A DNA stretch of 64,000 nt from Gemmiger sp. An120 (GTDB taxonomy: Bacteria; Bacillota; Clostridia; Oscillospirales; Ruminococcaceae), in the NCBI RefSeq assembly GCF_002160955.1, contig NZ_NFLN01000001.1, positions 1 through 64,000 of the forward strand, given 5' to 3'. Each line of letters opens with the position of its first letter. Positions within the stretch are counted from its first letter, which is position 1. Below the pieces are notes generated by a model. The model was given only the letters and a program-made list of their open reading frames with translations, did no database searches and was not told the DNA's origin. A program made the position numbers and the translations under genes. Shown here in pieces: positions 10,863 through 13,950 of this stretch.

Positions 10863-10938
10863 TGGTGGACCTGGAGGGATTCGAACCCTTGACCTCTGCG
10901 ATGCGAACGCAGCGCTCTCCCAACTGAGCTACAGGCCC
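10863..10938 (-). tRNA. tRNA-Ala (anticodon CGC)
   Basis: 76 nt with encoded CCA. Acceptor GGGCCTG/CAGGTCC (one G-U), D-arm GCTC/GAGC, anticodon stem CTGCG/CGCAG around loop TTCGCAT, T-arm AAGGGTTCGAATCCCTC. CGC reads GCG codons, common in this GC-rich genome. Confidence 0.95.
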
Positions 10939-10951
10939 ACGGCACTTGATG

Positions 10952-10980
10952 AGTATAAAGCATCCGGCAGAATTTGTCAA
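10952..10980 (-). promoter_or_regulatory. Promoter of tRNA-Ala
   Basis: Consensus-like on the minus strand: TTGACA (10975-10980), exactly 17 bp, TATACT (10952-10957). It lies 13 nt before the tRNA 5' end. Confidence 0.85.
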
Positions 10981-11119
10981 GGGGTTTCCAAAAAGAATTT
11001 TGCCTGTGCGGAAATTTCGCGGCAGGAACAGCCGCCCGGTACGCCTCTGATGCCGGCAGCAAAAGGGCGAAAGCGGTATGGCGCGGAAAGCGGTGACGAA
11101 AAAAGACGATTTTTTCTGC

Positions 11120-11148
11120 TTGCAGCCGGGCGGCGGCCGGGGTATCCT
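11120..11148 (+). promoter_or_regulatory. Possible promoter of the small-protein/regulator/kinase operon
   Basis: TTGCAG (11120-11125), 17-bp spacer, TATCCT (11143-11148), 52 nt before the first start codon. The -10 is weak; kept because the -35 matches the TTGCA type seen elsewhere in the window. Confidence 0.35.
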
Positions 11149-11200
11149 CAGAAGGGGAACCTTGCAAAGAAAATTCCATGTGAGGCAGGAGTTGTTTTGG

Positions 11201-11479
11201 ATGAAAGAAAAGGAGATTTGTCGGTTCGTGCGCTCATTTTCTTCGCTGGGGCACTTGCAGGCAGAGGGGAAAATGTTGTATGCTCTATGGCAGGAAGGAC
11301 CACAGAATTGGCGCATTTGTCTGGAGTACCGGCAGAAAACGGGCGTTCGCACGGATTCCTGCGTGCTCGGTCCGCTGAACAGGCTGGCCGCCGTACAGCT
11401 TCTTCAATGTCTGTATGAAAACGCCGTCCCGCTGGAGAACTGGCAGGACGTGCTGCACGAGCTGATGCAAAAATTCTGA
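11201..11479 (+). CDS. Small protein of unknown function upstream of a Spo0A-like regulator
   Basis: 92 aa, no membrane segment or signal. It has a basic, mixed N-terminal half and an acidic C-terminus ending in DVLHELMQKF. The ATG at 11201 is preceded by AGGAG with 10 nt spacing; an in-frame start at 11078 would add an unlikely Cys/Gly/Arg-rich tail. The layout (short beta-rich first half, then a helix and a final hydrophobic DVLxELM-type segment) loosely resembles small clostridial DUF6514-type proteins, but this is a weak impression. It is first in a tight cluster with the regulator (21 nt gap) and kinase, so a shared role is likely. Confidence 0.6.
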   Translation: MKEKEICRFVRSFSSLGHLQAEGKMLYALWQEGPQNWRICLEYRQKTGVRTDSCVLGPLNRLAAVQLLQCLYENAVPLENWQDVLHELMQKF

Positions 11480-11500
11480 TGGAAAGGCGGCGCGAAAGGA

Positions 11501-12244
11501 ATGGGCGGAACAGATTGCCGGTGGCCCGCACTTGACCTGTATCTCGCGGAAAACAACCTGCAGCAGCTGGGCCTGCTGGCAGATTACTTTTCCATGCGTC
11601 CCGAATTTGCGGTTCGGGGCACATTCACCGAGGGCAGTGTGCTGCTCAGCGCCCTGCGGGAGCGTCCGGTGGATCTGGTGATTACCTCGCTGGAACTGCG
11701 GGGCGATATGGATGCCCGGGAACTGCTGGTGGCGATGGGGCAGGCGGAACTGCTCTGCCCGCCCCGCGTGATCGTTGTGTTCGACGCGGAGCTGCCCGCG
11801 CTGCAGGCGCGGTGCCTGCAGGCCGGGGCGGACTACTATCTGGTCAAGCCCTACACCCTGCAGCGCCTGGCCAGCCGCGCGCTGGATGTATGCGAAAGCT
11901 TTGCGGCCGACGGGCAGGACCCGCTGGACGTCTGGCTCATACGGATGGGCCTGCGTCCCGGCGACAGCTTTTACAGCTGCTTCCGCTGCTGTCTGCAGGC
12001 GGCCATGGCCTGCGGCCCCGATTTCGCGCTGCTCAAAGAGGTCTACATACCCGCTGCCCAGGCTGGCAGCGTCAGTGTATCCGCGGTGGATACCAGCATG
12101 CGGCGGGCGCTGAAAATCCTGGAAACCCGGAATACGCCGCTGTATCGTCAGATGGCCGAACATTTCGGGCGGGAGCATCCCGGCAAACGGATGACCAGCA
12201 AAGCATTGCTGGAGCGTCTGGCCGGTCTGGCGCGGGGCGGGTGA
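11501..12244 (+). CDS. Spo0A-like response regulator with degenerate receiver domain
   Basis: 247 aa. Residues about 10-125 form a CheY-like receiver: the acidic pocket is reduced to LAENN, and the conserved Lys116 in DYYLVKPYT is present. The position of the phospho-acceptor Asp is Ser63 (in DLVITSLEL). Residues about 145-245 match the Spo0A C-terminal DNA-binding domain in pattern: a GLRPGDSFYSCF entry helix, DTSMRRALKI at the recognition-helix region (Spo0A has SRVERAIRHA), and KRMTSKALLERLAGLAR where Spo0A has KPTNSEFIAMVADKLR. It therefore probably binds DNA but cannot be phosphorylated normally. The start is uncertain: GAAAGGA directly abuts the ATG. The kinase gene follows 28 nt later. 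Confidence 0.8.
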   Translation: MGGTDCRWPALDLYLAENNLQQLGLLADYFSMRPEFAVRGTFTEGSVLLSALRERPVDLVITSLELRGDMDARELLVAMGQAELLCPPRVIVVFDAELPALQARCLQAGADYYLVKPYTLQRLASRALDVCESFAADGQDPLDVWLIRMGLRPGDSFYSCFRCCLQAAMACGPDFALLKEVYIPAAQAGSVSVSAVDTSMRRALKILETRNTPLYRQMAEHFGREHPGKRMTSKALLERLAGLARGG

Positions 12245-12272
12245 TACTGCGTATTTGCGGAGGAAATGAAGT

Positions 12273-13088
12273 ATGGACGACCCCAAAACCGTACAGGATC
12301 AGGACGCGCAGCGCCGGGAGCAGGCATTTTTAAGCGGGTTCTGTCAGGATATGGAAAGCCCGCTGAACGTAATCCTTACCGGCGCCGAATTTCTGGCCGA
12401 GGCCGCGCGCCGCAGCCCCGGCTGCTATACCCCCCAGCAGGAACACGCGCTGCAGAGCATTCAGGACAGCGCGGCGGTGCTGGGCCGTATGGCGGAAAAT
12501 ATTCTGGACGCCTACCAGTGCCTGAGCGCCGGCGCAGCGGTCCGTCCGCAGGCTGTGGAACTGGTCTCCCACCTGGAACGGCTGGCGCAGCTGGTAGCGC
12601 CCTGCGCGGCACGCCAGGGGGTGGCGCTTGCTTTCTCCGCCGGGACGCAGTCGCTGGCGGTCATGACGGACCGTATCCTGGCCGACCGGGTGGTGCTGAA
12701 CCTGCTTTCCAACGCGGTGTACCACGGCGGCGCCCGGGGCCATGTCTGGATGGAACTGGAACCCGGCGAAGACAAGCACCTTCTCCGGGTGCGGGACGAC
12801 GGGCCGGGCCTGCCCGCCGCGCTGGCTGACCGGCTGAACAGCGAACAGCCGTTTTCCCCGCCGTCTACCCGGGGCAGCGGTCTGGGGCTGTATCTCTGCC
12901 GGGAGTTCTGCAAGGCGCTGGGCTGGCATATGTATATTACCGGCAGCCCGCAGGGGACCAGCGCGGAACTGACGATTCCCTCCGGCTGGGATGCCGCCGG
13001 GGAGCTGCATTCCTCGCCGGTGTCCGCCATGCTGGAAGCGGACGATATGCGCCGGATGGTCCAGCGGGAGTTTGCACAGCAAAAATGA
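12273..13088 (+). CDS. Histidine-kinase-like protein lacking the phospho-acceptor histidine
   Basis: 271 aa, soluble, no membrane segment. The H-box region reads FCQDMESPLNVIL where kinases have SHELRTPLN, putting Gln25 at the His position. The ATPase half looks intact: N-box LNLLSNAVYHGG (about 146-157), G1 RDDGPGLP (about 177-184), G2 GSGLGLYLCREF (about 200-211). It should bind ATP but not autophosphorylate on the usual His. The C-terminal about 40 residues extend beyond the ATPase domain. GGAGG precedes the ATG. It is paired with the phosphorylation-dead regulator upstream, which suggests a signalling pair that works by binding rather than phosphotransfer (inference). Confidence 0.85.
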   Translation: MDDPKTVQDQDAQRREQAFLSGFCQDMESPLNVILTGAEFLAEAARRSPGCYTPQQEHALQSIQDSAAVLGRMAENILDAYQCLSAGAAVRPQAVELVSHLERLAQLVAPCAARQGVALAFSAGTQSLAVMTDRILADRVVLNLLSNAVYHGGARGHVWMELEPGEDKHLLRVRDDGPGLPAALADRLNSEQPFSPPSTRGSGLGLYLCREFCKALGWHMYITGSPQGTSAELTIPSGWDAAGELHSSPVSAMLEADDMRRMVQREFAQQK

Positions 13089-13095
13089 GCACCTT

Positions 13096-13132
13096 GAACG
13101 GGTGGGACGTTGCATCGTTCCCGCCCGTTTTT
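13096..13132 (+). terminator. Terminator after the kinase-like gene
   Basis: Imperfect stem AACGGGTGGGACG / CGTTCCCGCCCGTT with a 6-nt loop and T-run, between the kinase-like gene and the pyrH promoter. Confidence 0.8.
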
Positions 13133-13174
13133 TCTTTGCCTGGCATGCCGCGCCGTCCCGGTGCGGTTTTGGTG

Positions 13175-13203
13175 TTTACTTTGTCGTAGGTTTATTGTAA
13201 AAT
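13175..13203 (+). promoter_or_regulatory. Promoter of the pyrH-polC cluster
   Basis: TTTACT (13175-13180), 17 bp, TAAAAT (13198-13203), 39 nt before the pyrH start. Confidence 0.6.
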
Positions 13204-13242
13204 AAAAGAAATCAAATCCAAGGAAACGGTGGATGAACAAGT

Positions 13243-13950
13243 ATGGCGATACGATACAAACGGATTCTGCTCAAACTCAGCGGCGAAGCCCTGGCCGGCG
13301 ACAAGGGCGTCGGCTTTGACGAGCCCACCCTGGAAGCAATCTGCCGGGGCATCAAACAGGCCCGGGATCTGGGGGCCCAGATCGGCATTGTGGTAGGCGG
13401 CGGAAACTTCTGGCGCGGCCGTTCCAGCGGCAAGATGGAGCGTACCTGTGCCGACAAGATCGGGATGCTGGCCACCATCATGAACTGCCTGGCGGTGGCC
13501 GACGCGCTGGAGCAGCAGGGGATGGAAACCTGCGTGATGAGCTCGCTGGCGATGCCCCAGGTGGCCCAGCCCTTTACCCGCGGCGAGGCGGTGCGCAACC
13601 TGGAAGCCGGCCGCATCGTGCTGTTTGGCGGCGGCACCGGCAACCCGTTCTTCTCCACCGACAGTGCGTCTGCCTTGCGGGCCGCGGAGATCGGCGCCGA
13701 CGTGATGTTCAAGGCCACCATGGTGGACGGCGTTTACAACAAGGATCCGAAGAAATACCCGGATGCGGTGAAGTACGACACCCTTACCTTCAGCAAGGTG
13801 CTGGAGGAGAAGCTGGGCGTGATGGACGCCACCGCCGCGGCGCTGTGCCGGGATACCCATATGCCGGTGCTGGTGTTCGACATGCGCGACCCGGACAACA
13901 TTGCCCGTGCCGTGCAGGGCGATGAGATCGGCACCCTGGTGCAGGAATAA
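13243..13950 (+). CDS. pyrH: UMP kinase
   Basis: 235 aa, the usual length of this hexameric cytosolic enzyme that phosphorylates UMP to UDP with ATP. The amino-acid-kinase fold shows as KRILLKLSGEALAG (residues 5-18), VVGGGNFWRGR (about 51-61), and FKATMVDGVYNKDPKKYPDA near 155-175. The ribosome site before the ATG is weak (GGTGG). It opens the cluster pyrH-frr-uppS-cdsA-dxr-rseP-ispG-polC, a classic Firmicutes order, and is followed 82 nt later by frr. Confidence 0.97.
   Translation: MAIRYKRILLKLSGEALAGDKGVGFDEPTLEAICRGIKQARDLGAQIGIVVGGGNFWRGRSSGKMERTCADKIGMLATIMNCLAVADALEQQGMETCVMSSLAMPQVAQPFTRGEAVRNLEAGRIVLFGGGTGNPFFSTDSASALRAAEIGADVMFKATMVDGVYNKDPKKYPDAVKYDTLTFSKVLEEKLGVMDATAAALCRDTHMPVLVFDMRDPDNIARAVQGDEIGTLVQE

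Follow-up and report, generated by a model that had tools for sequence, protein, structure and literature searches.

The window analyzed here is a 64,000-nucleotide stretch of the Gemmiger sp. An120 genome (contig NZ_NFLN01000001.1, positions 1 to 64,000 of the forward strand), and between 11201 and 13088 it carries a putative regulatory unit of three plus-strand genes that lie head to tail, with intergenic gaps of 21 and 28 bases. The first gene (11201 to 11479) encodes a 92-amino acid protein, S, which the Pfam matches of its relatives mark as a divergent DUF6514 relative. The second (11501 to 12244) encodes a 247-amino acid Spo0A-type regulator, RR, composed of a pseudo-receiver and a helical DNA-binding domain as judged from Pfam, alignment columns, and the family profile, and the third (12273 to 13088) encodes HK, a 271-amino acid kinase-like protein that by Pfam and alignment is a probable sensorless pseudo-histidine kinase, with Gln25 in place of the phospho-accepting His and with its N, G1, and G2 boxes present. 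The RR and HK open reading frames were verified at these coordinates. Upstream of S on the same strand are a candidate operator, GACGA-N5-GACGA (11095 to 11109), a tandem arrangement with a 10-bp repeat that would be the site of the unit's own RR, and a likely promoter (11120 to 11148) assigned by eye and kept in the genus, which consists of a −35 TTGCAG, a 17-bp spacer, and a −10 TATCCT and is weak relative to the consensus; S, RR, and HK are probably all under this single promoter. The original prediction, made from the sequence alone, described RR and HK as a phosphorylation-dead two-component pair and suggested that the 92-residue protein might be a third partner, and S has proved to be a conserved third gene of the unit. 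All three genes recur side by side at 43 loci, which represent 15 genera of a single family; these loci were selected for having the three genes and are related rows of one family rather than a random sample. Below, G, L, and g numbers denote genomes, loci or fetched stretches, and genera, respectively, G000 being the window genome.

Loss of the phosphorylation residues

In an alignment of RR with 42 relatives, Ser63 occupies the column of the phospho-acceptor Asp, which is Asp in 34 of the 43 rows, and the active site has suffered further losses in that the acidic pair is E-N and Thr is missing from its site; Lys116 is retained, and the prediction had numbered both Ser63 and Lys116 correctly. 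The receiver fold is recognized by profile (Response_reg, 2.6e-8, 34.4 bits against a cut-off of 30.2) and the phospho-Asp is absent, so that RR counts as a pseudo-receiver protein by the definitions in the excerpted text of PMC12632262. A shifted alignment that would supply the missing Asp or His was considered: members of the window genus carry one additional residue past the Asp position, yet no shift was seen that gives an Asp or a His. The output domain appears to be of the Spo0A_C kind, an assignment that holds only through relatives. The window RR alone has no Spo0A_C match at E ≤ 10 in Pfam, where filters remove most weak matches, and a profile of the four same-genus rows reaches a probability of only 0.8%; the family profile was used instead, and in its 34-row form it matches the Spo0A C-terminal domain with 98.6% probability in profile-profile comparison, with 26 of the 34 members scanned matching Spo0A_C at E ≤ 0.1 and with Spo0A receiver chains ranking first when the profile is compared with the PDB. 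The predicted Spo0A pattern of the C-terminal domain therefore stands for the family and not for the window protein or its genus profile taken alone.

RR resembles Spo0A in combining a receiver with a Spo0A_C-type domain and in its tandem half-sites, which are close to the TGNCGAA box given for Spo0A in the excerpts of PMC7643835. It differs in scoring 46.2 bits, over the receiver part only, against a curated cut-off of 200 for the Spo0A equivalog model TIGR02875, in having no phospho-Asp, in belonging to a unit with S and HK, and in a recognition helix (around Arg201-Arg202) that has Arg-Arg where Spo0A has Arg-His. The missing Asp does not discriminate in this genome, which has a separate Spo0A (G000:C24; L001 1468-2232, minus strand) and SpoIVA, and whose Spo0A itself has Glu at the phospho-Asp site. 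The same Glu is found in three same-genus genomes, in g18 (G020), and in g25 (G027), while g31 (G033) has Asp, and eight of 32 Spo0A rows are without Asp (Glu, Asn, Ser, or Ala); the idea that a Spo0A-type domain without a normal receiver is unusual is thus not borne out here. An Asp-to-Glu change can yield constitutive activity, often not by itself, according to the excerpts of PMC4395418. One genome of g5 (G007:C3) contains eight Spo0A_C matches, seven of them above the cut-off, and four of the eight lie in open frames of only 118 to 140 amino acids, which leaves no room for a receiver.

In HK, Gln25 falls in the column of the H-box His, which is His in 13 of the 43 rows, and here too the predicted residue and its numbering were right. 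The protein matches HATPase_c at 5.6e-19 and HisKA at 2.2e-5 (24.9 bits, below the cut-off of 26.9); relatives bearing His align over the same region, and 13 of 34 family members match HisKA at E ≤ 0.001. By the definitions excerpted from PMC12632262 it is a probable pseudo-histidine kinase, with a HisKA score just below the cut-off. The ATP-binding boxes had been called intact, and they are indeed present, N and G1 by alignment and the G2 of the window by eye; across the family, the three checked residues (N, N, and D) are all retained in 21 of the 30 His-less HKs. A C-terminal tail motif of HK was given no weight: it is present at 24 of 43 loci, and shuffles gave 10.7 on average and 22 at most.

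The two columns were then compared over the 43 loci. The His column holds His at 13, Gly at 12, Gln at four, Ala at three, and Glu at three, with Cys, Asn, Lys, Arg, Ser, Tyr, Met, and Asp at one each, and the Asp column holds Asp at 34, Ser at six, Gly at two, and Asn at one. Both residues, the canonical two-component arrangement, are present at 12 loci, Asp only at 22, His only at one, and neither at eight, the window being one of the eight. The claim that both partners have lost their chemistry is therefore true in the window, though this is a minority state, the commonest being a His-less HK beside an RR that keeps Asp. For comparison, the excerpts of PMC12632262 give background missing-site rates of 0.9% for the HisKA His and 2.0% for the receiver Asp, against 30/43 and 9/43 here, where the rows are related and were chosen by the unit.

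In a tree built from HK and RR with the two columns removed, the His state changes at least four times and the Asp state at least five. The tree splits 27 rows from nine genera, with His only in L134, from 16 rows with His in 12, and Asp-less rows fall in g1, g12, g71, g25, and g105; L205, which is outside the tree and belongs to one of the nine nearly His-less genera, has His. The space before the H-box, for which HK start codons were picked mechanically, is at least 143 residues in nine of the 13 His-bearing HKs and at most 91 in 29 of the 30 His-less ones. L102 has His and no space for a sensor, and in the same genus L099 and L131 lack His as well as such space. These combinations of states, which are not a reconstruction, suggest a loss order of roughly sensor domain, then phospho-His, then phospho-Asp, to which L132, L134, and L205 are exceptions.

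Within the window genus, RR has Ser in all four genomes, so that Ser63 is conserved there, and Gln25 is not fixed: G000, G001, and G002 have Gln (CAG), and the sister species G003 has His (CAT). As G003 and G001 form the closer pair by dN, His was either regained once or lost twice. The window strain is not an outlier, with Gln in three of the four genomes and His absent from 30 of the 43 loci.

These distributions also bear on the proposal that the system is phosphorylated by another route, either at Ser63 by a Ser/Thr kinase or with HK serving as a phosphatase or targeting another regulator. The residue directly after the H-box position is acidic in 21 of the 30 His-less members and gives Q-D in the window, RR may be phosphorylated by others at the 22 His-less loci that keep Asp, and His is present in G003 and L205. 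We nevertheless consider this quite unlikely, as the acidic pair and the Thr of the window RR are altered as well, Ser63 is not a usual substrate for an HK phosphatase, and Asp-less members vary among Ser, Gly, and Asn at the site.

The candidate operator and its reader

Directly upstream of TTGCAG, the sequence GTGACGAAAAA(A/T)GACGATTTTTTC is kept in the four same-genus genomes, and TATCCT follows TTGCAG 17 bases on (TATGCT in G001). The −35 matches the consensus at three of six positions, and a weak promoter of this kind would suit an activator. The candidate operator lies at about −60 to −46, a position that suits activation of the operon, the most likely direction of control. Without mismatch, the composite GWCGA-N5-GWCGA-N10-TTG occurs once per genome in the four genomes, at this operon; one-mismatch forms give four further scattered matches in the four genomes together, and a looser two-mismatch form gives three extra matches (control, 0 to 2 per strand). 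A wider regulon was rejected on these small numbers, weaker or differently spaced targets not having been sought.

Across the family, we used a strict form, GWCG-N6-GWCG with TTG 10 bases past the fifth base of the second half-site and one mismatch allowed, which is present at 20 of 43 loci in eight genera; TTG distances of 5 to 15 as alternatives give 0 to 4 loci, repeat lengths of 7 to 14 give 0 to 3, and the reverse strand gives 1. By residue state, the strict form is found at 7/12 loci with both residues, 8/22 with Asp only, 1/1 with His only, and 4/8 with neither. The same geometry is thus present with both residues (L115, L117, L118, L119, L120, L123, and L170, in g143, g70, g138, and g31) and with neither (L002, L133, L135, and L174, with L122 added by a freer scan), from which it follows that the output side need not have changed when the input chemistry went. 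The freer scan looked for two identical GxxG words before TTG in 130 combinations of repeat and distance over 45 loci, a total that includes L205 and L206, which are counted nowhere else: 18 of the 45 fall at repeat 10 and distance 10, with at most two in any of the other 129 combinations, and in 16 of the 18 the two halves also agree at the fifth base, which was not required. The half-site words vary between genera, mostly with the two halves changing in step, and include GACGA, GACGC (L116 and L125 of g105), GACGG (g82), GTCGT (L120), GTCGA (L170), and GAAGG (L122 and L206). A further word, GTAGG (L113 and L169, g78), lies one base farther from TTG and is less sure, its sites scoring no better than shuffles (p 0.24 and 0.21).

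A rival account is that the housekeeping Spo0A reads this operator and that the unit has an accessory part in tuning Spo0A, to which HK or S would bind. The first half-site of the window genus, TGACGAA, fits the published TGNCGAA box (excerpts of PMC7643835), and the genome has the Spo0A and SpoIVA described above; a scan of the window for the box with one mismatch found eight against 7.3 expected. Elsewhere in the family the half-sites differ (GACGG, GACGC, and GAAGG), and the Spo0A recognition helix is VERAIRH in 32 of 32 rows, mostly best Spo0A_C matches. With this helix constant while the operator varies by genus, change in Spo0A does not explain the operator differences, and these differences match the unit's own RR. 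Where the first Arg of the RR helix is kept (22 loci), a second Arg is accompanied by a half-site starting GA in 15 of 15, and a different residue by GT in six of seven. Where the first Arg is replaced by Met or His, the half-site has lost its C in three of three, two of which are the weak g78 sites. L205 and L206, which were fetched after the motif had been defined, carry His in place of the first Arg, and their half-sites are GAAG. The clearest case is G022, in which Spo0A keeps VERAIRH (L261), the RR of the unit has ESGIHR, and the operator is GAAGG. The Fisher values for the association, 9e-5 and 4e-4, are overstated by the relatedness of the rows. The comparison used 25 loci of the 29 listed with a readable operator, out of 43; half-sites were read by eye, and one half was taken where the two differ (L105, L106, L115, L118, L119, L123, L166, and L174). 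The operator word therefore tends to follow the recognition helix of the unit's RR and not that of Spo0A, and RR most likely regulates its own operon. As operator reader, Spo0A is unlikely across the family, a verdict that does not extend to the window genus, and as a whole the Spo0A-centered account is the least probable of those considered.

A probable switch without phosphorylation

All three genes are under purifying selection. In a Nei-Gojobori count over six pairs of the four same-genus genomes, dN/dS is 0.08 to 0.13 for S, 0.07 to 0.19 for RR, and 0.16 to 0.30 for HK, values on which the decay of a dying pair was rejected and which agree with the selection that had been predicted. With part borders placed by eye, the most invariant parts of HK in the genus are the helix with the missing His (23/31) and the next helix (32/38), and those of RR are the stretch before the missing Asp (23/25) and the stretch containing the site (22/25), which is what one expects if HK and RR still touch at these parts. 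As HK is conserved at the helices around the missing His and in the ATP pocket, control by binding is the simplest account.

Taken as a whole, the unit seems to us rather more probably than otherwise a dedicated switch with phosphorylation-independent autoregulation, and gating of that switch by ATP is a less assured element. In such a switch, RR would bind the pair of head-to-tail half-sites that immediately precedes the −35 of its own operon, likely activating it. HK, as a sensorless ATP-binding pseudokinase, would dock on the pseudo-receiver and shift RR between operator-binding and non-binding states, with ATP or ADP perhaps the input to HK, and S would be the output or a third binding partner. 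We infer that RR binds the operator and activates the operon, that HK docks on RR, that ATP gates the switch, and that S has the part proposed for it. The unit would have descended from a normal two-component system by losing the sensor domain, the phospho-His, and the phospho-Asp, roughly in that order, and would meanwhile have kept the operator geometry, the DNA-binding domain, and the docking helices, along with the ATP pocket in the majority of members. The fullest version of this scenario is held only tentatively, as somewhat less than an even prospect: a stepwise loss of chemistry under unchanged promoter logic, giving a normal-to-dead series at one chromosomal place, with the end state an ATP-gated, binding-only switch whose sole target is its own operon and whose state is relayed via S.

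An alternative is that RR is a constitutive autoregulator and HK a remnant or mere scaffold, no signal being sensed. This would be in keeping with the loss of most RR active-site residues, with the lack of a sensor domain in HK, where almost every His-less member is short before the H-box, and with the erosion of ATP boxes in part of the family. Set against these points are the purifying selection on HK, the position of its most invariant part around the missing His, and the presence of HK beside RR at all 43 loci, a count biased by the choice of loci having S, RR, and HK. On balance we think a constitutive RR unlikely.

Several observations weigh against a dedicated binding switch. The promoter of S was not listed in a consensus scan of 10900 to 13400. 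In the composite search, the reversed-pattern control gave 3 to 21 matches per strand, more than the pattern itself, a result given little weight because the reversed word differs in make-up. The strict composite leaves out seven of the 15 genera and four of the eight loci with neither residue. L117 is an exception to the relation between RR helix and operator, and four loci with irregular sites, all Arg-Arg, were left out of that comparison (L100, L124, L129, and L130). The independent pairs in which helix and operator change together number one and two, which does not allow a test, and of the three loci without the first Arg, L113 and L169 have the sites that scored no better than shuffles. 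L205 and L206 make up for these weaker g78 sites, and the odds of a dedicated switch are unchanged. ATP boxes are partly lost in nine of the 30 His-less HKs, including g12, where both His and Asp are lost. L132 is without His and has 136 residues before its H-box, which contradicts the order of sensor loss before His loss. G003 and L205, the latter with His alongside Gly at the Asp site, count against a simple story in which His never returns, and in some such members HK might retain autophosphorylation, perhaps to serve a different regulator. Structure prediction gave no structural support, as two AlphaFold models (three rows each) reached a pLDDT of only 47-48, too poor for a fold search.

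DivL, RocA, and a ChrS variant act on regulators that keep their Asp and that have other kinases, unlike HK, whose paired RR has lost its Asp too. These proteins are similar to HK in that they are termed pseudokinases or repurposed histidine kinases still active in regulation in excerpts of the respective papers (DivL, PMC4211667 and PMC5361649; RocA, PMC7028121; ChrS variant, PMC9491836). RR likewise resembles atypical or pseudo-receiver regulators (ALR/PsR) such as ChxR, HP1043, FrzS, and CmrT in having a receiver without the active-site Asp, and differs from them in being encoded next to a pseudokinase and in being linked to normal systems by a graded series. Both halves thus have precedents, and we found no paired, conserved, autoregulated dead system with such a series in the open-licence PubMed Central (PMC) literature searched, nor any description of the S-RR-HK unit among the matches listed from those papers. 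In the excerpts of PMC12632262, the on/off switching of pseudo-receivers is said to remain a mystery, and only two of the 20 atypical regulators described are non-orphans; here the partner of the pseudo-receiver adjoins it and the candidate operator is defined to the base.

Distribution of the unit and neighboring features

The S profile was found in 37 of 297 family genomes and, with more rows and a stricter limit, in 54 of 396; some of the compared genomes are incomplete. In a draw of 197 genomes from the order it gave four matches, namely the window's own, G107 of the same family, and two from other families (L142 and L238), which had no RR or HK in the fetched stretch. Among 33 stretches upstream of pyrH from a draw of relatives (28 of the family, four of the stretches shorter than 2500 bases), L205 and L206 have RR and HK without a detected S, L225 has an RR-like frame alone, and 30 have neither. 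As far as sampled, the unit is restricted to part of the family. S matches without an adjacent RR and HK were excluded from the 43 (L107, L121, L127, L128, L136, L167, and L175-L183). In g105, the S-like genes of L107, L121, L167, and L175 have no RR or HK in the stretch, and other g105 copies are in the full unit.

The link of S to DUF6514 (PF20124) rests on eight of 27 aligned S proteins that match at E ≤ 0.1 (best, 1.5e-9); the window S differs in having no match at E ≤ 10 and thus falls short of the Pfam cut-off. At 20 order- or phylum-level DUF6514 loci, no RR or HK of this kind was present in the fetched stretches, some of which are short, and these neighborhoods gave no hint of function; DUF6514 is named in none of the open-licence PMC papers searched. 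In L153 and L155, of the same phylum and another class, a DUF6514 gene precedes genes for YjeF/NAD(P)H-hydrate dehydratase and for alanine racemase, and in L153 an ACPS gene lies between.

HK is followed by genes with Pfam matches to AA_kinase, ribosome recycling factor, and undecaprenyl diphosphate synthase. The AA_kinase gene (13243 to 13950, plus strand; 5.7e-32), which from its position we take to be pyrH, encoding UMP kinase, adjoins the unit at 32 of 43 loci within the fetched stretches and serves as a syntenic anchor that is not counted as part of the switch. Between HK and pyrH, a bulged-stem hairpin followed by a T-run (13096 to 13134, plus strand) may be a terminator; by eye, a GC-rich stem and T-run are present in all four same-genus genomes, and the hairpin was not listed in the consensus scan of 10900 to 13400. 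A search for plasmid sequences gave no match. The promoter scan placed a promoter-like site of pyrH's own at 13175-13203 on the plus strand. The surrounding sequence upstream of pyrH (13150-13215) is near-identical across the four same-genus genomes (GGTTTTGGTGTTTACTTTG.CGT.GGTTTATTGTAAAATA), a conservation that perhaps exceeds the needs of a bare promoter.
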